A DNA stretch of 40,385 nucleotides from NCBI RefSeq assembly GCF_013911755.1, contig NZ_JACESP010000028.1:1-40385 (forward strand). The letters are read 5' to 3'. Below are positions 6,658 to 40,385 of the stretch, in pieces. Each line of letters opens with the position of its first letter. Position 1 is the stretch's first letter. This stretch comes from Sphingosinicella sp. Lineage in GTDB: Bacteria > Pseudomonadota > Alphaproteobacteria > Sphingomonadales > Sphingomonadaceae. The notes under the pieces were generated by a model, which was not told the DNA's origin, did not search any database, and saw nothing but the letters and a program-made list of their open reading frames with translations. The position numbers and the translations under genes were made by a program.

Positions 6658-8339
6658 CCGCGACCCTGCCCGCGCCAGCGATGGATGGTGCGGCTGAGGA
6701 TTCCGGCTTCGTCACCTTCCTCGGTCCAGAGCTGGCTGAACAGTGGATCGTCCGATGCGGGGCGAAGCTGCGGCGCGAGGTCGTCGAGCCGGACGCGGAT
6801 CGGGATCGAAACACCCTCGCCGCAGATGATGCATTCGCGGTTGCGGAGCGCCGGGATCGAATCGAGGAAGCCGCGTGCGCCTTCCGGCATCGCGTTGCGC
6901 ACGTACATCTGGTCGCGTTCGTTGTTGAGACGCATGGAGATGATCGTGCCGCACTGCGACAGCACGCCTTCGGCAAGGTCCGATGGGCGCTGCGTGATAA
7001 GGCCCAGCGAAACGCCGTATTTACGGCCTTCCTTGGCGATGCGTTCGAGAACCTTGCGAACCGCGACGCCCTTCGTCTCGCGGTCTGACGGCACGTAGCG
7101 GTGCGCCTCTTCGCAGACGAGCAGGATCGGGCGTTGCGGTTCACGGCGTGCCCAGATCGCATAGTCGAACACCATGCGCGCGAGCACCGCGACCACCACG
7201 GTCACGATGTCGGAGGGCACGCCCGACAGGTCGACGATCGAGATCGGCTTGCCTTCCGCGGGAAGCCGGAAAATCTTCGAAAGGAACGGCGCCATCGAAT
7301 CCGAAACGAGCAGGCCGTTGAACATGAATGCGTAGCGCGGATCGCCCTTCAGCTCCTCGATCTTGGTTTTCAGGCGCATGTACGGGCCGAGATCGCTCGC
7401 CTTGTCGAGCTTGCCCATCTGCGCGTTGATGGCGCCGAGCAGGTCCGAAAGCAGGTAGGGCACGGGCGAATCGACCGTCATCTTCCCGAGCGATTCGGCG
7501 ATCCGGCTCTTGGAGCGTGCGGCGAGCAGGCACTTGGCCAGCACGTCCATATCCCGCTCGCGCTCGGCACCGTCGGTGGTGATGAAGACCTCGCAGTGCT
7601 CCTCGAAGTTCATCAGCCAGTACGGCAGGTTGAGGTTGTCGACGTTGAAGATCATGCCGTTCGAGCTGAACGCGGCGGCGTATTCGCCGTGCGGATCGAG
7701 CATCATGATGTGGCCCTTGGGCGCCTTCTCGACGATGCGGTGCAGGATCAGCGCGGCGCTCGTCGATTTACCCGTACCCGTGGAGCCGAGCAGCGCGAAG
7801 TGCTTGCCGAGCATCGCATCGATGAGCAGTGAGCCCCGCACGTCCTCGGTGGGGTAGACGGTGCCGATTTCGATGTGCGGGCGGTCTTCGGCGGCGAACA
7901 CGAGCACGAGGTCGGCGCGCGAGACGGTGAACACATCGTCGCCCGGCACGGGATAGCGCGTCACGCCGCGGCGGAACGCCTTCATCGATCCGGTCGCGGG
8001 GTCTTCGGGGCCTTCGCCGAGGAAGTCGATGTGCGAGAAGATGGTCGCGCCTGCCTCGTCCATGCGCATGTCGCGGACGTTGCCGAGCAGCCAGAGGTCG
8101 CCGACGCGCATCTTAACCTGGCTGCCGACCTGCCCGGACATGGCGACGGTCGTGTCCTCGTGGCCGGTGATCGCCTTCAGCTGCGTCGGGTCGAGGCTGC
8201 AGATCGCGGAGCCGCCGGCGATCTCGCGCACGCGGCCGATCACGCACGTGCTGGGCAGGCTTGCGGCCTTCTGGGGCTGCATGAAGACGTTGTGACCATC
8301 GGCCGACGACGCGCTCACCGGCATGAACGACTGATCCAA
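6654..8339 (-). CDS. HerA-like ATPase (HAS-barrel plus DUF87)
   Basis: Hexameric-translocase-type P-loop ATPase of the HerA/FtsK clade, about 561 residues. Residues ~30-165 look like the beta-rich HAS-barrel. Walker A is GSTGTGKS (185-192), followed by MLDPHGEY. Walker B is ILLVCEEAHRYV, and the sensor-like LITQRPSDL follows. In archaea HerA pairs with the nuclease NurA in end resection. No NurA-like gene is adjacent here, so the bacterial role is unknown. Start: an AAGGAG sits 6 bases before a TTG at 8339. A GTG at 8354 would place that AAGGAG inside the coding region, and an ATG at 8324 is 21 bases from it. I use the TTG with moderate confidence. The stop is shared with the convergent LysR gene. 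Confidence 0.88.
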   Translation of the reverse strand: MDQSFMPVSASSADGHNVFMQPQKAASLPSTCVIGRVREIAGGSAICSLDPTQLKAITGHEDTTVAMSGQVGSQVKMRVGDLWLLGNVRDMRMDEAGATIFSHIDFLGEGPEDPATGSMKAFRRGVTRYPVPGDDVFTVSRADLVLVFAAEDRPHIEIGTVYPTEDVRGSLLIDAMLGKHFALLGSTGTGKSTSAALILHRIVEKAPKGHIMMLDPHGEYAAAFSSNGMIFNVDNLNLPYWLMNFEEHCEVFITTDGAERERDMDVLAKCLLAARSKSRIAESLGKMTVDSPVPYLLSDLLGAINAQMGKLDKASDLGPYMRLKTKIEELKGDPRYAFMFNGLLVSDSMAPFLSKIFRLPAEGKPISIVDLSGVPSDIVTVVVAVLARMVFDYAIWARREPQRPILLVCEEAHRYVPSDRETKGVAVRKVLERIAKEGRKYGVSLGLITQRPSDLAEGVLSQCGTIISMRLNNERDQMYVRNAMPEGARGFLDSIPALRNRECIICGEGVSIPIRVRLDDLAPQLRPASDDPLFSQLWTEEGDEAGILSRTIHRWRGQGRG

Positions 8340-8405
8340 GACGTACTCCTTCACTGCGATAAGGCTTTGCCGCAGCGGTGTAACAGCGAAGGGATAAAGA
8401 AGCGT

Positions 8406-9152
8406 TTATCGCCGCGTGAAGAGCCCGGCGGTCCAGCCGAGCAGCAGCGCCAGTACGACCGCGAGCATCCCGTAGGAGAAGCTGTGCTCCTCGGCAGCGA
8501 CGGAGACCTGCCGCTCGAAGCCGGATTTGTCGATGCTGATCTCGCGCATCGCGCTCGCCACCACCTTGCCCTCGTCGATCAGGTGGATTTCGACCGTGTA
8601 ATTGCCCACGGGCACCTGGCTCGGAATCTGGATGCGGGCGCGGTAGAGCACGTTTTCGGTAAGTTCGACTCCCTGCGCATCATCGGAATACAGACCCTCG
8701 CGGCGGCGCAGGCTGAGAAAGCCCTGCTCGAACGTGCGAATATCGCTGGCATCGCTCGAAACCGGCGAAAGCTGCAGGTGCGAGAGGCCCAGCTCGTAGA
8801 TCGCAGCCGTCTCGTCGTTGACCAGCTTCGAAATCGGGCGCGTCGTTGCGACGCTGTAGAACGACGGCGCCGTCTCGAAGCGCACCGCGCGCGTGTTGAT
8901 CCAGATGCCCGCGACGCGCGCCTTGCGCCGCACCGTCACCGCCTCCGGTGGTCCGCGCACGATCACTGCGATGTCGGGACGCTCGTCGGGCGTCTGCCCG
9001 CCCGGATACTGGATCGCACCGAAGATCAGCAGTTCGGCGCCCGCGAAGCTGTAGACGATGTCGATCTTGCTGTGGCTGATATCGGTGATCAGCCGCGGCG
9101 GCGCCGCCGCCGACAGCAGCAGAAAGAATAGGGGCAGCCAGAATCGCTTCAT
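8406..9152 (-). CDS. TIGR02186-family membrane-anchored periplasmic protein
   Basis: 248 residues of the alphaproteobacterial TIGR02186 type. There is an N-terminal signal (about 1-17, hydrophobic, Ala-rich end), a periplasmic beta-rich body with ISHSKIDIVYSFAGAELLIFG and GNYTVEIHLIDEGKVV, and one C-terminal membrane helix (about 225-245, ending GLFTRR). The body resembles an immunoglobulin-like fold. Function is unknown. Family members sit next to sulfite exporter-like permeases, and here the ATG overlaps the stop of the TSUP gene (ATGA), so the two proteins are made together and may work together in anion export. The stop is TAA at 8406-8408. Confidence 0.85.
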   Translation of the reverse strand: MKRFWLPLFFLLLSAAAPPRLITDISHSKIDIVYSFAGAELLIFGAIQYPGGQTPDERPDIAVIVRGPPEAVTVRRKARVAGIWINTRAVRFETAPSFYSVATTRPISKLVNDETAAIYELGLSHLQLSPVSSDASDIRTFEQGFLSLRRREGLYSDDAQGVELTENVLYRARIQIPSQVPVGNYTVEIHLIDEGKVVASAMREISIDKSGFERQVSVAAEEHSFSYGMLAVVLALLLGWTAGLFTRR

Positions 9153-10063
9153 TCGGCAAAGACCGAATAAAGCTCGCTCGGCGTCCACGTCAGGCCGACA
9201 AGCAGGCGGATCGCCACCGCGACGACGAGCAGCGCGAGCCCGAATCGCAGTTTTTCGGGCGGCAGGCGCTGCGCCATGCGCGCCCCGATCTGCGCGCCGA
9301 TGACGCCGCCGACCAGCAGCATCAGCGCAAGCACGATATCGACCGTTTTCGATTGTACGGCGTGGAGCAGCGTGACCACGGCGGTCGTGAACACGATCTG
9401 GAACAGCGAGGTGCCGACCACGACCGAGACGGACATGCCGAGCAGGTAGATCATCGCCGGCACCATGATGAAGCCGCCGCCGATGCCCATGATGAAGGTG
9501 AGGATGCCCACAGCCACGCCGATGCCGAACGGCGCAAGCGGGGAGATGTAGAGGCCCGACTTGTAGAAGCGCATCTTCCACGGCAGCGCCGCGATGAACG
9601 GGATGTGCGGGTGCAGCTTCACGCGGCGGATTTCACCGGCGCGCGCGCGCCGCAGCGTCTGCCACGATTCCACCAGCATCAGCCCGCCCATCGTCGACAG
9701 GAACACCACGTAGATCAGGGAGATGGTGATATCGATCTGGCCGATTTTCTGGAGCAGCTTGAACACGTAGGAGCCGATCCCGGAGCCCACGATGCCGCCC
9801 GCCACGAGGACGGCACCCATCTTGAGATCGACGCCGCCGCGCCGCCAGTGCGCGAGTGCGCCGGAGACGCTCGATCCGGTGATCTGCGTGGCGGACGATG
9901 CCACCGCGACCGCGGGCGGAATCCCGTAGAAGATCAGCATCGGCGTGGTCAGGAAGCCGCCGCCGACGCCGAACATGCCGGACATGAAGCCGACCAGCAC
10001 GCCGAACCCCACAATCACCAGCGAATTGACGCTGAGTTCGGCGATCGGGAGATAGATGTCCAT
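9149..10063 (-). CDS. TSUP (TauE/SafE) anion permease
   Basis: Inner-membrane permease of 304 residues with about eight hydrophobic helices. The two pseudo-repeated family motifs are FGVGGGFLTTPMLIFYGIP in the N-terminal half and MGIGGGFIMVPAMIYLLG in the C-terminal half. TSUP proteins move sulfite, sulfoacetate, thiosulfate or similar organosulfur anions; the substrate here is not readable from sequence. The ATG at 10061-10063 has an AGGA just upstream. A longer reading to 10162 exists but runs through the shared upstream region with ada. It is coupled to the downstream TIGR02186 gene. A cytosolic loop of roughly 60 residues separates the two halves. Confidence 0.92.
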   Translation of the reverse strand: MDIYLPIAELSVNSLVIVGFGVLVGFMSGMFGVGGGFLTTPMLIFYGIPPAVAVASSATQITGSSVSGALAHWRRGGVDLKMGAVLVAGGIVGSGIGSYVFKLLQKIGQIDITISLIYVVFLSTMGGLMLVESWQTLRRARAGEIRRVKLHPHIPFIAALPWKMRFYKSGLYISPLAPFGIGVAVGILTFIMGIGGGFIMVPAMIYLLGMSVSVVVGTSLFQIVFTTAVVTLLHAVQSKTVDIVLALMLLVGGVIGAQIGARMAQRLPPEKLRFGLALLVVAVAIRLLVGLTWTPSELYSVFAE

Positions 10064-35399: not shown

Positions 35400-36527
35400 C
35401 ACGACTTCCTTCATGATTTCCGATGTGCCGCCGTAGATGCGCTGTACGCGCGCGTCGCGCCATAGGCGGGCGATCGGGTATTCGTTCATGTAGCCCGCGC
35501 CTCCGTGAAGCTGGAGCGAGAGGTCGCACGCATCCCATTGTAGCTCGGTATGCCAGAGCTTGGCGGCGGAAGCCTCGGCGGCGGTGAGCTTGCCTTCGAC
35601 GTGGCGCTTCAGCGCCCAGTCGAGATGCGCCCAGCCCACCTGCAGTTTCGTCGCGAGGTCGGCGAGCGTGAACTTGGTGTTCTGGAAATCGAACACGGTC
35701 TTGCCGAACGCCCTGCGCTCCTTGGTGAACTTGACCGCTTCGTCGAACGCGCGCTGCGCGACCGCCTGGCCGGAGAGCGCGATCTGGAGACGCTCCTGAG
35801 GGAGCTGCTTCATCAGGTAGATGAAGCCCATGTTCTCCTCGCCGATGCAGTTGGTGATCGGGACGCGGACGTCGTTGAAGAACAGCTCGGAGGTGTCGGC
35901 GGAGTGTTGCCCGATCTTGTCGAGGTTGCGGCCGCGCGCAAAGCCCTCGCGGTCGGCTTCGACGAGGATGAGCGAGGTGCCCTTGGCGCCTTGCGACGGG
36001 TCCGTTTTGGCGACGACGATGATGAGGTCGGCGTTCTGGCCGTTGGTGATGTAGGTCTTGGAGCCGTTCACGACATAGTGGTTGCCGTCGCGCTTCGCGG
36101 CTGTCTTCACGCCCTGGAGATCGGAGCCGGCGCCGGGTTCGGTCATCGCGATCGCGGTGATGACCTCGCCGGAGACCATTCCGGGGAGCCAGCGGCGCTT
36201 TTGTTCTTCGGAGCCGTAGTTGATGATGTAGTCGACGACGATGTCGGAGTGGAGGGTGATGCCTGCCGAGGAGCCGGCGTAGCAAAGTTCCTCCCCTATG
36301 ACGGCGTTGTAGCGGTAGTCGAGGCCGAGACCGCCATATTCTTCAGGGACTTGCGGGCAAAGTAGACCCGCTTCGCCGCAGGCGCGCCAGAAGTTGCGGT
36401 CGACGATGCCCTCGTGCTCCCACCGGTCGAGGTTGGGATAGAGTTCGCGGTCGAAGAACTTGCGGACGCTGTCGCGGAAGAGGGCGTGATCCTCGTCGAA
36501 CGCGGTGCGGCGGGCGGTATCGAGCAT
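35385..36527 (-). CDS. Acyl-CoA dehydrogenase, long-chain type
   Basis: FAD-dependent acyl-CoA dehydrogenase of beta-oxidation, 380 residues. Landmarks: PEEYGGLGLDYRY, ITAIAMTEPGAGSDLQG (FAD/substrate site), YVVNGSKTYITNGQNAD, KERRAFGKTVFDFQNTKF, LQLHGGAGYMNEYPIARLWRD and IYGGTSEIMKEVV. The position used as catalytic Glu in medium-chain enzymes is Gly in YGGTSE. The base is probably Glu263 in AFDEAVKF, the location used by long-chain and isovaleryl enzymes, so I infer a long- or branched-chain substrate. The ATG at 36525-36527 has AAAGGA upstream. It follows an XRE regulator in the same direction. Confidence 0.93.
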   Translation of the reverse strand: MLDTARRTAFDEDHALFRDSVRKFFDRELYPNLDRWEHEGIVDRNFWRACGEAGLLCPQVPEEYGGLGLDYRYNAVIGEELCYAGSSAGITLHSDIVVDYIINYGSEEQKRRWLPGMVSGEVITAIAMTEPGAGSDLQGVKTAAKRDGNHYVVNGSKTYITNGQNADLIIVVAKTDPSQGAKGTSLILVEADREGFARGRNLDKIGQHSADTSELFFNDVRVPITNCIGEENMGFIYLMKQLPQERLQIALSGQAVAQRAFDEAVKFTKERRAFGKTVFDFQNTKFTLADLATKLQVGWAHLDWALKRHVEGKLTAAEASAAKLWHTELQWDACDLSLQLHGGAGYMNEYPIARLWRDARVQRIYGGTSEIMKEVVSRAI

Positions 36528-36541
36528 GAAGGGTTCCTTTC

Positions 36542-36565
36542 GGCGCCGCGGTTAGCGGCGGCGCC
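36542..36565 (-). other. Hairpin in the leader of the acyl-CoA dehydrogenase gene
   Basis: GGCGCCGC (36542-36549) and GCGGCGCC (36558-36565) pair perfectly over 8 bp with an 8-base loop, about 15 bases upstream of the gene's start and just before its ribosome site, between the XRE gene and the dehydrogenase gene. There is no T-run. It could separate expression of the two genes by processing or pausing. Confidence 0.4.
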
Positions 36566-36581
36566 TTCGGGCGCATACTCC

Positions 36582-37145
36582 CTAAAGTGGGCGTACCAAT
36601 GTTGCCGCGACCGCGAGCCAGGGGGTTTCGGAGACGACGAGCTGCCGCGCGCCGGGGACCAGCGGCAGGATGGCGAGGCGCTGGCCATCGAGATCGACGA
36701 GGCGGCCGAACACGAAGCGCCCGGCGGGGCGGGGGACGAGCACGTCGCGGTTGCGCGCGCGCTCGAAATCGGCCGGGGCAAGCCGTTCGCACCAGATCGA
36801 ATCGCCGGTGCGGTAGTCGCCGATGCCCGAGACGACCTGCACGGCGATCATCGCGCCGGAGGGGCGGGGCGGCAGCAGCGTCTGCGGCATCGTCGGCGCA
36901 CGCGCGCCGTCTGCGGCGAGGAGGGCGGCGACGGGGACGTCGGGGCGTTCGGGATGCGTGACGAGCTCGGCAGCTTCGACGCCGAGCGCGGCGGCGATGC
37001 GGTTGAGCCAGCCGACCGATACGGTGCGGGTGCCGGTTTCGAGGCGGCCGATGGTTTGCGGGGTGGTCGCAGGGCGGCAGCGTTCGGCGACGTCCGCCAG
37101 CGTGAGGCCCTTGCCCTTGCGAACCTCGCGGATGCGTGTGAGCAT
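36582..37145 (-). CDS. XRE-family regulator upstream of acyl-CoA dehydrogenase
   Basis: Helix-turn-helix protein, 187 residues. The XRE HTH is residues 1-62 (REVRKGKGLTLADVAERC, TIGRLETGTRTVSVGWLNRIAAALG). A ~110-residue C-terminal domain (SGIGDYRTGDSIWCERL, RDVLVPRPAGRFVFGRLVDLDG) recalls the fold of LexA/phage-repressor S24 domains, but I see no clear Ser-Lys catalytic pair. The start ATG 37143-37145 has AGGA 7 bases upstream. A dyad TGTCC-N6-GGACA lies 29 bases upstream and may be its operator. It precedes the dehydrogenase by 54 bases. A phage-derived repressor is an alternative, since the terminase scar is only about 1 kb away. Confidence 0.85.
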   Translation of the reverse strand: MLTRIREVRKGKGLTLADVAERCRPATTPQTIGRLETGTRTVSVGWLNRIAAALGVEAAELVTHPERPDVPVAALLAADGARAPTMPQTLLPPRPSGAMIAVQVVSGIGDYRTGDSIWCERLAPADFERARNRDVLVPRPAGRFVFGRLVDLDGQRLAILPLVPGARQLVVSETPWLAVAATLVRPL

Positions 37146-37173
37146 CGAATTATCCTATTGGGTTATTTTTCAC

Positions 37174-37189
37174 TGTCCTACAGCGGACA
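37174..37189. promoter_or_regulatory. Dyad TGTCC-N6-GGACA before the XRE gene
   Basis: TGTCC (37174-37178) and GGACA (37185-37189) form a short perfect dyad in the 87-base gap between the divergent XRE and DUF6456 genes. Position and symmetry suit an XRE operator that would affect both genes. Short arms mean it could be chance. Confidence 0.4.
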
Positions 37190-37232
37190 CGCGATGGCAA
37201 GGGCGATTCGCAACTGAACGCGAGGGAGCGCC

Positions 37233-37706
37233 ATGCCCGAAACCCGTAACCGTATGATCGTGAACAGCATCGACAGCCCGCCGCACCGCCGCGCGGCCAC
37301 CGAAGGCGCGCGGCACGCGAACCGCGCCGAGGAGCCGATCGCGTGGCTGCACGCGCGCGGCAAGATCAGCGACCGCCAGTTCGAGGCGGGCGTGCGCCTG
37401 CGCCGCGACTTCATGATCGCCGCGCGGGGCCCGCGCGTGACGATGGCGTGGGACGCGGGGCCGGTGGCGAAGGGCGCCCGCAACGCGCCCGCGTCCGATC
37501 CGACGACGGCGCAGATCGGCGCGAAAGCGCGCGTGGACGCGGCGCTCGCGCACGCGGGGCAAGGCCTTGCCGACGTGCTGACGCGTACGGTGTGCCTGGG
37601 CGAGGGGCTGGAAACGGCGGAACGGGCGATGGGCGGGCCGGCGCGCGCCGGAAAGGTGGTGCTGTGCCTGGGGCTGGACCGCGTGGCGGACTATTACCGG
37701 GTGTGA
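37233..37706 (+). CDS. DUF6456-like protein
   Basis: 157 residues, basic. The N-terminal half includes EEPIAWLHARGKISDRQFEAG, a helix pair resembling a DNA-binding entry. The C-terminal half ends in TVCLGEGLETAERAMGGPARAGKVVLCLGLDRVADYYRV, matching my memory of DUF6456, an uncharacterised alphaproteobacterial domain. The ATG at 37233 has GAGGGAG 6 bases upstream. It is divergent from the XRE gene. It sits upstream of the terminase remnants, so it may be a former regulator or neighbour of the GTA-like cluster; that link is inference. Its 3' end overlaps the small minus-strand gene by 13 bases. Confidence 0.78.
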   Translation: MPETRNRMIVNSIDSPPHRRAATEGARHANRAEEPIAWLHARGKISDRQFEAGVRLRRDFMIAARGPRVTMAWDAGPVAKGARNAPASDPTTAQIGAKARVDAALAHAGQGLADVLTRTVCLGEGLETAERAMGGPARAGKVVLCLGLDRVADYYRV

Positions 37707-37825
37707 GCGGCAGCGTCTGCGGCGGCAGGCGGCGTGGAGGCGATCGCGCCCGCGTGCGGCGGAATCGCAATGGCGCCGACGGCGGCGATGAACAGAAGGC
37801 AGGCGCAGACGATGATCGTTTTCAT
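37694..37825 (-). CDS. Tiny predicted exported peptide (43 residues)
   Basis: Short open frame ATG 37823-37825 to TAA 37696-37694. The peptide starts MKTIIVCACLLFIAAVGAIA, a Lys followed by an uninterrupted hydrophobic stretch, then a Pro/Ala/His-rich tail ending AAAHTR. This is the profile of a signal peptide or a single-helix small membrane protein. AGAGG lies 6 bases upstream of the ATG. It converges with the DUF6456 gene, overlapping by 13 bases. No homologue is known to me; the good ribosome site and the Lys-plus-hydrophobic start argue that it is real. Confidence 0.5.
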   Translation of the reverse strand: MKTIIVCACLLFIAAVGAIAIPPHAGAIASTPPAAADAAAHTR

Positions 37826-37960
37826 TTCAACCTCTTTTGCCCGGCCCCGGTAAGCTCCTCTTACAGCGCATAAAATTACGATCCGATGAACGACATATCA
37901 GGATCGACGCGGGAGGTGGCCCAGCCGCCGAGATGTTACAACCCGGGTGCGACCATAAGG

Positions 37961-38020
37961 ACCAAAAATAACCAAATAGGCAAAATAATGCTTGACGAGC
38001 GAACCGCTCTTCGCTAGAGA
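37961..38020 (+). promoter_or_regulatory. Strong-looking promoter with phased A-tracts
   Basis: TTGACG (37992-37997) and TAGAGA (38015-38020) are 17 bases apart. Directly upstream lie three A-tracts (37964-37968, 37974-37976, 37982-37985) at about 9-10 base spacing, the phase expected for an UP element or bent DNA. The predicted transcript starts near 38027, 90 bases before the terminase remnant. This is the most AT-rich stretch between genes in the window. Confidence 0.65.
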
Positions 38021-38040
38021 TCAGACACGCTGAGGAATTG

Positions 38041-38075
38041 CGGCTCCGGGGGTTCAGGCCCTTCGGAGCCGTTTT
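38041..38075 (+). terminator. Intrinsic-terminator-like hairpin right after the promoter
   Basis: CGGCTCCG (38041-38048) pairs with CGGAGCCG (38064-38071). Further GGG/CCC pairing is possible inside the loop, and TTTT follows directly. It begins about 14 bases after the predicted transcription start and 42 bases before the small-terminase start, so most transcripts would be about 50 bases long unless it is bypassed. Confidence 0.72.
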
Positions 38076-38116
38076 CATGTCGGGGCTCGGCGCGGCTTCT
38101 CCTGTGAAAGACCCCG

Positions 38117-38606
38117 ATGACGAAAACGACACCGGCGAAAAAGCCGGCGCGCCGCGCATCCCAGCGGCATGACGGATGGACGGCGAAGCGGCGCGGCATC
38201 TTCCTTGAAACGCTGGCGGAAACGGCGAATGTGCGCCGCGCCGTGGCGGCGACGGGCAAGACGACATGCGGTGTCTATGCACTGCGCCGCCGCGATGCCG
38301 ACTTCGCGCGGGCCTGGGACGACGCGCTTTCGCTCGCGATGGATGAACTGGAGGCGATCGCCTTTGATCGCATCCGCAACGGCGTGGAAAAAACCGTGGT
38401 GCGCGGCAGCGGCACGCCGGTGACGATCCGTGAATATTCGGACCGGCTGCTGATGTTCATGCTGAGCCGCCGCAGGCCGCAAGCCTATGCGATGATCGTG
38501 GGCGAAGAGGGGGGGGGAGGCGGAGGACGACGCGCTAGCGCTGTATCGCACCGTCGAAGCGCGTGCCGCCGCGATCGAGGCGCGGCGCGGAGACGCCGAC
38601 GCATGA
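38117..38606 (+). pseudogene. GTA/phage small terminase-like gene, frameshifted at a G9 run
   Basis: Encodes a protein resembling the first gene of GTA-like clusters (small terminase type): a basic leader, GWTAKRRGIFLETLAETANV, an HTH-like helix AVAATGKTTCGVYALRRRDADF, then AWDDALSLAMDELEAIAFDR. At 38509-38517 nine G occur. As written, the frame leaves the expected sequence and reads Gly/Arg-rich nonsense into the next gene. With eight G the frame continues as EAEDDALALYRTVEARAAAI and stops at TGA 38604-38606, overlapping the next ATG (ATGA), exactly the expected operon junction. So there is a one-base insertion, real or a homopolymer sequencing error. Confidence 0.75.
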
Positions 38607-39043
38607 CCCCGCCGAACCTGAAAGCGCGGCTGGAGGCGATGTCTCCCGCAGAGTTCGCCGAGGCGTTGGAGGGGATCCACCTTGAAGATCGCAACGCGCT
38701 GGTCGGAAGCTGGTATTGGCGCGCACGGTCTTCGCAGGTCATGCCGCCGGGTGATTGGCACACGTGGCTGGTGATGGCGGGCCGCGGCTTCGGCAAGACG
38801 CGCACGGGCGCCGAATGGGTGCAGCGTGCGGCGCGAAACGGCGGCGCGCGCATCGCCATTGTCGGGACGACGCTGCATGAAGCGCGCGCCGTGATGGTGG
38901 AAGGCGAATCCGGCCTGCTCCGCGTGCGTGCGGATTGGCGCCCGCAGTTCGAGCCCTCGCTGCGGCGGCTTTCGTGGCCGACGGGCGCGAAGGGCTTCCT
39001 TTATTCGGCGGAGGACCCGGATGCGCTGCGGGGCGCGCAGCAT
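38603..39043 (+). pseudogene. Large terminase N-terminal fragment (truncated)
   Basis: Starts ATG 38603 (overlapping the small-terminase stop in its corrected frame) and encodes about 147 residues typical of the ATPase part of a phage/GTA large terminase: SWYWRARSSQVMPPGDWHTW, Walker A AGRGFGKTRTGAEW (59-72), AIVGTTLHEARAVMVEGESG, FEPSLRRLSWPTGAKGFLYSAEDPDALRGAQH. Just after LRGAQH, where the family continues into its Walker B region, similarity ends. The frame then runs in Arg/His-rich out-of-frame sequence to a stop at 39301. The rest of the ATPase and the whole nuclease domain are missing, so it cannot package DNA. Confidence 0.85.
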
Positions 39044-39506
39044 AGTCATGCCCACCGGGCAGGCCCAGAAAGAACTCACGCACAACACCGCGATCCATGG
39101 CCTCGACCGCCTTGTCCATCTGTGCGCGGAGAGTCGCACACTTACGGTGCCGCCCGCATTGCCTGCGCCGGACACGACGTGGATCGTCGGCACGGACGCG
39201 ACGGGCGCGTGGGCGGGGCACGCCGGCGCGCTCGCGCACTGGGACGGCGCGTGGGTGATTGCGCCGCCGCCGGAAGGGATGCTGTGCTGGATCGCGGATG
39301 AGGCCGTCCTCGCCGTGTTCGGCGGCGGGGTGTGGAACGCCGCCCTGCCGGTCGCCGGCCTCAGAATCGGCGGCGCCGTGATGCTGACCGAGCCCCCGGT
39401 TGCGATTGAGGCACCGGCGGGCGGAAGCGTGATCGATATCGAGGCGCGAGCCGTGCTGGCGAGCCTGCTCAGCTACCTTCGCGAACAAGGTTTACTGACG
39501 TCATGA
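39044..39506 (+). pseudogene. DUF2793 gene lacking its 5' end, joined to terminase
   Basis: In a different frame from the terminase, this segment reads VMPTGQAQKELTHNTAIHGL, the signature start of DUF2793 proteins, then WIVGTDATGAWAGHAGALAHWDGAW, MLCWIADEAVLAVFGGGVW, and ends at TGA 39504-39506. DUF2793 proteins are found at the far end of GTA-like clusters in sphingomonads (family knowledge). The usual residues before the QAQKE motif are cut short at about 39044. An ATG at 39048 could start a 152-residue product, but no ribosome site precedes it. An intact short protein is possible, though degradation is more likely. Confidence 0.75.
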
Positions 39507-39653: not shown

Positions 39654-40385
39654 ATGCGTAGACTCGCCGTAGTCTTGGCGCTGGCCGGCACCGCTCTTGC
39701 GGGCCCGGCGCTCGCGCGCGACAAGGCCTGGTATGCAGGTATCGAGGGCGGTGCGCTGCTCATCGAGAATATCGATTTCGACGTGACCAGCCCGCAGGGT
39801 GTCGAAACGAGCAATGGCGTCACCGTCAAGCACAAGATGGGGTATGACGTCGATGGTATCGTCGGATATGATTTCGGCGGTTTCCGTACCGAGTTCGAAC
39901 TGGGCTTCAAGAAAGCTTCGCTCGACAAAGTGACGCTGACGGGCCTTGCGGTTCCGGGCAGCGGAACGGCAGCCAGCGGATCGTTCTCTGACGCGGGCGG
40001 CACCACGAGCGCGCTCAGCTTCATGGTGAACGGGCTGTTCGACTTCGGCGACGACGATGGCTGGAACGGCTATGTCGGTGGCGGCGTGGGTATCGCCCGC
40101 GTCAAGGCCGACATCTATCAAGTTGTTGATCAAGGAACTGATTTTGTCGACGACAGCGACACCGGATTTGCGTGGCAGGTCATCGCGGGTGTCCGCAAGG
40201 CGATCAGTGACAATGTCGATCTGGGCTTGAAGTATCGCTACTTCAACACGGATGCGCTTGATGTTGTTGGTGTGGACGGATCGGCATATGATGGCCGCTT
40301 CCGCAGCCACTCGCTGCTCGCGAGCGTGATCTTCAACTTCGGTGCGGAAGCGCCGCCGCCTCCGCCGCCTCCGGTTGCGGAACCG
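39654..40385 (+). CDS. OmpA-like outer-membrane barrel protein (3' end outside window)
   Basis: 244 codons, open to the window end. The signal peptide is about 1-22 (MRRLAVVLALAGTALAGPALA). The mature part begins DKAWYAGIEGGALLIENIDF and continues as amphipathic strands alternating with polar loops (VGYDFGGFRTEFELGFKKA, WNGYVGGGVGIARVKADIY, VDLGLKYRYFNTDALDV, HSLLASVIFNFG), an eight-stranded OmpA-type barrel. It ends in a Pro hinge (APPPPPPP) that usually leads to a peptidoglycan-binding OmpA domain, expected beyond the window. The ATG at 39654 has AAAGGGGA 5 bases upstream. The segment around 40105-40150 is visibly less GC-rich, probably a variable surface loop. Confidence 0.88.
   Translation, partial: MRRLAVVLALAGTALAGPALARDKAWYAGIEGGALLIENIDFDVTSPQGVETSNGVTVKHKMGYDVDGIVGYDFGGFRTEFELGFKKASLDKVTLTGLAVPGSGTAASGSFSDAGGTTSALSFMVNGLFDFGDDDGWNGYVGGGVGIARVKADIYQVVDQGTDFVDDSDTGFAWQVIAGVRKAISDNVDLGLKYRYFNTDALDVVGVDGSAYDGRFRSHSLLASVIFNFGAEAPPPPPPPVAEP

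Follow-up and report, generated by a model that had tools for sequence, protein, structure and literature searches.

A DUF2793 gene that lacks its start and follows directly on a truncated terminase gene raises the question of how the two came to lie side by side, and whether the join records one chance loss or a process that repeats itself. We address this for a window of 40,385 nucleotides, i.e. the whole stretch of DNA analysed, which is the complete contig C21 of a Sphingosinicella sp. assembly (G000; 48 contigs, 99.94% complete). Based on alignments to intact relatives combined with searches of 397 genomes of the family Sphingomonadaceae, we propose that the window probably shows a chromosome from which a GTA block has been removed by an excision that recurs, is precise to the base and resembles the action of a recombinase, giving rise to GTA-minus lineages that seldom persist.

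In the first-pass annotation, the locus was described as a small terminase gene (TerS) followed by the N-terminus of the large terminase (TerL) with its Walker A motif. Both identifications hold (Table 1), the latter through a Terminase_6N match on 38603-39052 (E 2.4e-11, Pfam scan of the window); no Pfam family was assigned to the window TerS. The TerL fragment, which had been put at ~147 codons, comprises 149-150 and breaks off just ahead of the Walker B motif (WCDE/WGDE), at a point past which the TerL of the intact congener G004 runs on. The abrupt switch into an out-of-frame, startless DUF2793 is likewise borne out and lies at 39051/39052. From 39052 onwards the sequence derives from DUF2793 (CC ACC GGG CAG..), with the junction dinucleotide CC as in the congeneric DUF2793 codon GCC. 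The DUF2793 frame (PF10983 match on 39048-39503, E 6.9e-25) is offset by one, and the native first residues (MTATARLGLPLI in G004) are absent. Relative to G004, TerS has gained 10 additional bases in a G-run near 38505-38519, leading to the TerS frameshift and to an in-frame fusion with the TerL fragment. The beta-barrel gene at the contig end occurs in five of the six genomes of the genus and adjoins DUF2793 in all five. Scans of the window for tRNA genes and Rfam families returned no match.

Table 1 Features of the truncated locus and its surroundings in the window.
Feature	Position	Strand	Remarks
Left flank	35646..38116		collinear with G004 and G001
TerS gene	38117..38602	+	frameshifted relative to the intact 159-aa TerS of G004
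TerL N-terminal part, 149-150 codons, Walker A GRGFGKT	38603..39051	+	88% identity to G004
Junction	39051..39053	+	TerL-derived ..CATGC up to 39051, then CC at 39052-39053, then DUF2793
DUF2793 (GTA tail-fibre family) gene without native start	39052..39506	+	stop at 39504-39506
Outer-membrane beta-barrel gene	39654..40385	+	cut by the contig end at 40385

The comparison to G004 defines what was lost. Window positions 35646-39052 match the left flank of G004 at 89.2% identity over 3,413 bp, where 35646 is the start of the G004 stretch compared; for G001, the left-flank identity is 85.7% over 4,031 bp, again ending at 39052. On the other side, window 39046-40385 matches the right flank at 84.6% identity. 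In G004, 18,250 bp separate the two break points, i.e. ~18.25 kb are absent from the window. The G004 locus is intact, with TerS, a full TerL (441 aa; Terminase_6N and Terminase_6C), portal, prohead protease and HK97 capsid, together with a connector, tail tube, tail completion protein, tape measure, DUF2460 tail-sheath TIM-barrel protein and baseplate hub protein. DUF2793 is located downstream of this cluster, and the same position beside cluster genes is found for DUF2793 in the window. Of the RcGTA-like cluster order (TerS, TerL, portal, protease, capsid, tail), only TerS and the N-terminal part of TerL (TerL-N) are left in the window. An assembly search of G000 detected neither the portal, nor the TerL C-terminus, nor the GTA capsid; the same capsid query matches G004, G003, G001, G065 and G211. 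Given flanks that match G004 up to the break points, and an assembly in which portal, capsid and TerL C-terminus were not found, a large deletion has left its scar in the window. The locus is a remnant and not a cluster, in agreement with the earlier reading that a GTA-like head-tail cluster was deleted here.

The distance between the break points is 10.4 to 14.4 kb in the 32 other intact genomes used. Extra ORFs in the G004 cluster (L032:13204-15793 and 7309-9660), which show weak matches to cupin and to DUF4440 and include a 783-aa protein not matched by Pfam, may account for a block of 18 kb instead of about 13 kb.

The same junction recurs across the family. TerL-N is present in 307 of the 397 family genomes, and a profile of the joined peptide matches 301. 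Among the matches listed, the junction is read through in at least 30 of the 397, a lower bound that leaves out G130, where the match continues past the site but the deletion is a different one. The count was taken from the profile search because a screen by frame length missed joined loci with long frames (G256, G274, G390). Reading all 30 at base level placed 29 in one fixed register, the sole departure being G102, which has a 1-nt indel directly past the join. In G006, which belongs to another genus, TerL-N meets DUF2793 at the very same base, again with 7 nt separating CATGCC from CAGGC. When the spacing was left free between 0 and 80 nt, 60 of 60 instances in 117 genome loci (repeats included) had the same spacing, and the fixed-register pattern yielded 50 non-redundant junctions in these loci. 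Joined relatives are spread over many genera of Sphingomonadaceae. A scan of named genomes, using a query biased towards joined forms, found 30 joined among the best 80 loci (5 of the 80 unclassified by motif), including Qipengyuania aquimaris JCM 12189, Q. intermedia, Croceicoccus mobilis, C. ponticola, Novosphingobium endophyticum, N. aquimarinum, N. aerophilum, N. cyanobacteriorum, Erythrobacter ani, E. crassostrea and Actirhodobacter atriluteus. The 'single deletion' of the first-pass annotation therefore stands as a deletion of the block, but not as a single event, the same join being found in many genera. With the same deletion recurring, there is no single event whose age would date one loss, and the suggestion that the breakpoint could serve this purpose has to be given up; the joins look recurrent and recent.

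Where the two parts meet is defined to within a dinucleotide. On the left, TerL sequence runs as far as the second base of the codon closing HSHA (variants HHIA, HSHG and HGFA), and in G370 the left end reads CACAC. On the right, DUF2793 sequence sets in at one of two places, either the second base of the codon preceding AGQAQKE or the first base of the codon that follows it. Across the 50 non-redundant junctions, the dinucleotides are TC (19), CT (12), TT (9), AC (4), GT (2), AT (2), CC (1) and TA (1), and TG is never seen. In intact relatives the TerL site reads NT, and the DUF2793 site reads TC, TT, AC or AT in most cases. Hence, the join seems to carry the pair of one parent as a unit, with TT and AT assignable to either parent and TA (L265) fitting neither simply. 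Short direct repeats, for which the first-pass annotation had suggested a check at the breakpoint, do not explain the junction: in 33 intact genomes, the two sites agree at 6.94 of 30 positions, below the mean of 8.13 for nearby pairs. Nor was an identical core in the two parental sites seen in the site table, the homology scan or the exact parent described below. Attachment-site-like palindromy is weak (product 4.91 of 14, with 7% of position pairs as good), the best inverted-repeat pair of the two regions falls about 16 nt to the left of the break in TerL and 1 nt away from that in DUF2793, and folding of five joined and two intact segments gave nothing beyond shuffles. No recombinase domain was detected in the 19 ORFs scanned at the G004 locus, a scan that does not take in ~2 kb before DUF2793. 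No excised circle or reciprocal junction was found at 166 TerL Walker-B sites in the viral contigs examined, and no joined form among the viral loci examined.

We propose that cuts staggered by 2 nt are made at two fixed sites, TerL codon 150 and about DUF2793 codon 12, and that the ends are then joined in an unvarying register, i.e. a presumably conservative exchange through which the RcGTA-like structural block would be excised recurrently and to the base. The actor would be a site-specific recombinase-like enzyme, which is hypothetical. End joining would instead be expected to leave 0 or 4 nt, too. The products would be GTA-minus lineages, likely of frequent origin and seldom persistent. 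Deletion by large serine recombinases, between attB and attP, involves a 2-bp exchange at two dissimilar sites and the directional loss of what lies between. The dissimilar sites and the directional loss are shared with the process considered here, presumably along with the 2-bp exchange. The differences are that the enzyme is hypothetical and that the two parental dinucleotides usually differ, which known serine recombinases tolerate poorly. A tentative extension of this proposal, possible and on balance doubtful, is that Sphingomonadaceae possess a dedicated, undescribed excision system for the GTA structural block, which would make cuts staggered by 2 bp at a TerL site and a DUF2793 site that have no core in common, and would switch producers to non-producers in part of a population.

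Alternatively, the locus may be a deletion hotspot that requires no dedicated enzyme, where replication or repair errors strike two fragile conserved sequences and the loss of a costly GTA then spreads. Other deletions at the locus are compatible with such fragility. In G130 the same TerL spot is joined to a small tail gene via a common TGCCTGG, with the region from the tape measure to DUF2793 kept. Two further genomes have other break points: in G002, of the same genus as the window (L070:12744-16515), TerS runs into the portion of the DUF2460 tail gene that encodes the C-terminus, and the last cluster genes and a native DUF2793 are kept, and in G070 the deletion extends from the portal to DUF2793. 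However, microhomology is only 0-1 bp in the pair with a known parent (L279), the sites resemble each other less than nearby pairs do on average, and a single spacing occurs in all 60 instances although the sites are 10-18 kb apart. We therefore regard a hotspot as unlikely.

That the joins arose separately is suggested by several observations. Of 19 joined copies, 14 have their closest intact counterpart in the same genus and 5 in another genus. A tree of TerL-N requires at least 34 changes between the joined and the intact state, 11 of which are forced by well-supported branches; it is based on 129 rows, partly picked by similarity to joined forms and with 43 counted as joined (among them G261, inferred from contig ends), and on 127 columns that leave many forks unresolved. 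In 500 shuffles the mean was 36.2 changes, i.e. the state is distributed on the tree in a near-random manner. In addition, letters specific to individual lineages reach the junction, namely GPEH in genus g2, PGQSQ in G349 and CC in g1, the genus of the window. The same junction is thus found to the base in independent events, as is characteristic of site-specific recombination. That the same base has been joined many separate times points to a repeatable cutting and joining, and not to one chance deletion.

The identical spacing everywhere and the near-random state on the tree, as well as contig ends at the junction in G261 and G169, would also be expected if one ancient joined allele had been maintained as a trans-species polymorphism, with recombination with intact alleles refreshing its flanks. 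Against this, the g2-specific GPEH is located about 12 nt left of the junction in G006, PGQSQ, also seen in G253 of the same genus, follows directly to its right in G349, and CC in G000 is specific to its genus; furthermore, there are two dinucleotide types, each matching intact parents, and L279 equals its intact partner to the base. An ancient allele is accordingly quite improbable. As a separate matter, a mobile block re-inserted by transfer was considered and rejected, since the divergences of TerL-N and TerL-C correlate (r = 0.90 for 195 close pairs among 78 intact loci, in which some genomes are represented twice).

Recurrent excision, the reading we prefer, is complemented by near-identical intact parents for a few of the joins. 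The joined L279, a MAG contig, is identical to the intact UViG_3300043466_004587 at 2,728 of 2,728 left and 407 of 407 right positions, and differs from it by a 12,592-bp deletion. The joined G349 has a single difference in 1,206 left nt to the intact isolate record UViG_2882129403, in which the right flank of G349 was not found; a scan of viral contigs with the G349 DUF2793 gave no relative. Intact partners were found at 97.4% over 1,751 nt for G006 and at 94.2% over 1,057 nt for G314. In total, 2 of 61 joined TerL-N queries (genome repeats included) have an identical intact partner among the viral loci examined. The window has none among 11 related viral loci, which show 50-63% identity, and its frameshifted TerS may reflect an older loss.

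Decay of the remnants is rare. Among the 30 joined genomes, disabling changes were seen in TerS of G000, in DUF2793 of G102 and in TerL-N of G370. In three sets of loci TerL-N is without stops in 19/19, 30/30 and 11/12, and the DUF2793 frame is open in 17/17, 29/29 and 12/12 of those with the end in view, where the 17 leave out G102, G261 and G169 and some genomes belong to both collections. The TerS frame is present in 19 of 20 loci (missing in G000) and was matched by the search pattern in 9 of 12 later loci, with no match in G387, G370 and G289. Such a small number of disabling mutations suggests that the joins are young.

The open TerL-N and DUF2793 frames would also be accounted for by a functional remnant of TerS, truncated TerL and DUF2793 that is kept by selection, e.g. 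by blocking packaging or receptors, and the low dN/dS of TerL-N in the closest pairs (for example 0.023/0.692 for G109-G176) is in line with this. However, the open DUF2793 frame contains no ATG, GTG or TTG, and hence no usual start codon, in 13 of 41 joined loci, every part is broken somewhere (TerS, TerL-N and DUF2793 in the three genomes given above), and the identical intact partner of L279 indicates that recency can suffice. Selection on the frame moreover leaves the fixed base unexplained. Relatives with the same fusion, which the first-pass annotation had weighed as a possible sign of a genuine gene under purifying selection, do exist in many genera, but a conserved intact fused gene was not found. 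Selection for a remnant thus has very little to commend it, and the rare decay suggests youth rather than selection as the simplest reading.

The assemblies themselves bear on the junction in two ways. In G261 (contigs C23/C19) and G169 (C48/C28), both of genus g95, TerL and DUF2793 are located at contig ends that abut at the junction, which is suggestive of a fork between coexisting intact and joined alleles. The TerL C-terminus and the capsid were not found in either assembly, so that the contig ends are no more than suggestive of coexistence. In nine joined records (L231, L233, L235, L250, L270, L282, L284, L290 and L305), the length stated by the submitter in the contig name equals the record length, and the block was thus seemingly not cut out of the records afterwards. 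That the same junction is present in many separately assembled genomes makes a chimera of the G000 assembly unlikely. An artefact of assembly or collection, as might be imagined from L279 being joined in a MAG and intact in a metagenome contig and from two assemblies breaking at the junction, is very improbable in light of these stated lengths, the several submitters, the mix of isolates and MAGs, and sites without a common sequence for an assembler to join.

Excision of the skin element, the nifD element and SP-beta represents a conservative join at fixed sites, through which a large block is excised in one orientation. The process proposed here shares the conservative fixed-site join and the large removal in one orientation, but differs in that there is no common att core and no recombinase among the block ORFs scanned. 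Moreover, both sites fall within conserved structural genes, and the outcome is the destruction of TerL and not the restoration of a gene. Compared to the RcGTA-like cluster of Rhodobacter capsulatus, the likeness is to the G004 gene set from TerS to the tail genes plus DUF2793. The difference is that the block from TerL codon 150 to DUF2793 is gone here and in at least 29 others of the 397 genomes, at one junction.

In the portions of PMC10883770 drawn on here, DUF2793 is the RcGTA tail fibre, co-evolving with the GTA genes. Pseudogenisation and complete loss of GTA clusters are described there for several lineages, possibly representing cheaters, and the persistence of GTA production despite the expected non-producing cheaters is considered unsolved; a fixed junction is not mentioned in those portions. 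PMC6821227 describes the conserved prophage of Viswanathan et al. 2017 as a predicted RcGTA-like element. A family-wide fixed junction was not found in print within the open-access literature, a scope outside which Viswanathan et al. 2017 falls. A recurrent loss at one base, in at least 30 of 397 genomes (at least 30 of the 301 matching the gene start), renders the rate and the fate of GTA loss directly measurable, and the near-identical intact copies available for some joins help in this, e.g. by junction PCR and read searches. If driven by an enzyme, the losses would further imply a recombination system whose two target sites are dissimilar and lie in coding sequence.

Elsewhere in the class, the profile, which was built from Sphingomonadaceae sequences, matches 103 of 385 genomes; 98 of these are outside the family, and none of the 98 reads past model position 46 or through the junction. 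Nine short-frame matches were also read, of which eight stay in TerL past the site and one stops at a contig edge before it. Within the family, the 3.0-Mb genome G372 has eight TerL-N matches, which may reflect many prophages or a duplication of terminase genes. In the 19 joined or contig-split genomes, G000 included, the capsid query matched G114 only, at 42% identity and on another contig, and the TerL C-terminus matched G102 (51%, on another contig) and, weakly at 24%, G166. On contig C8 of G114, which is not the contig of the joined locus, a second DUF2793 gene and the 42% capsid are located far apart (1002302, within L105, and 85073), and these genes possibly represent prophages.
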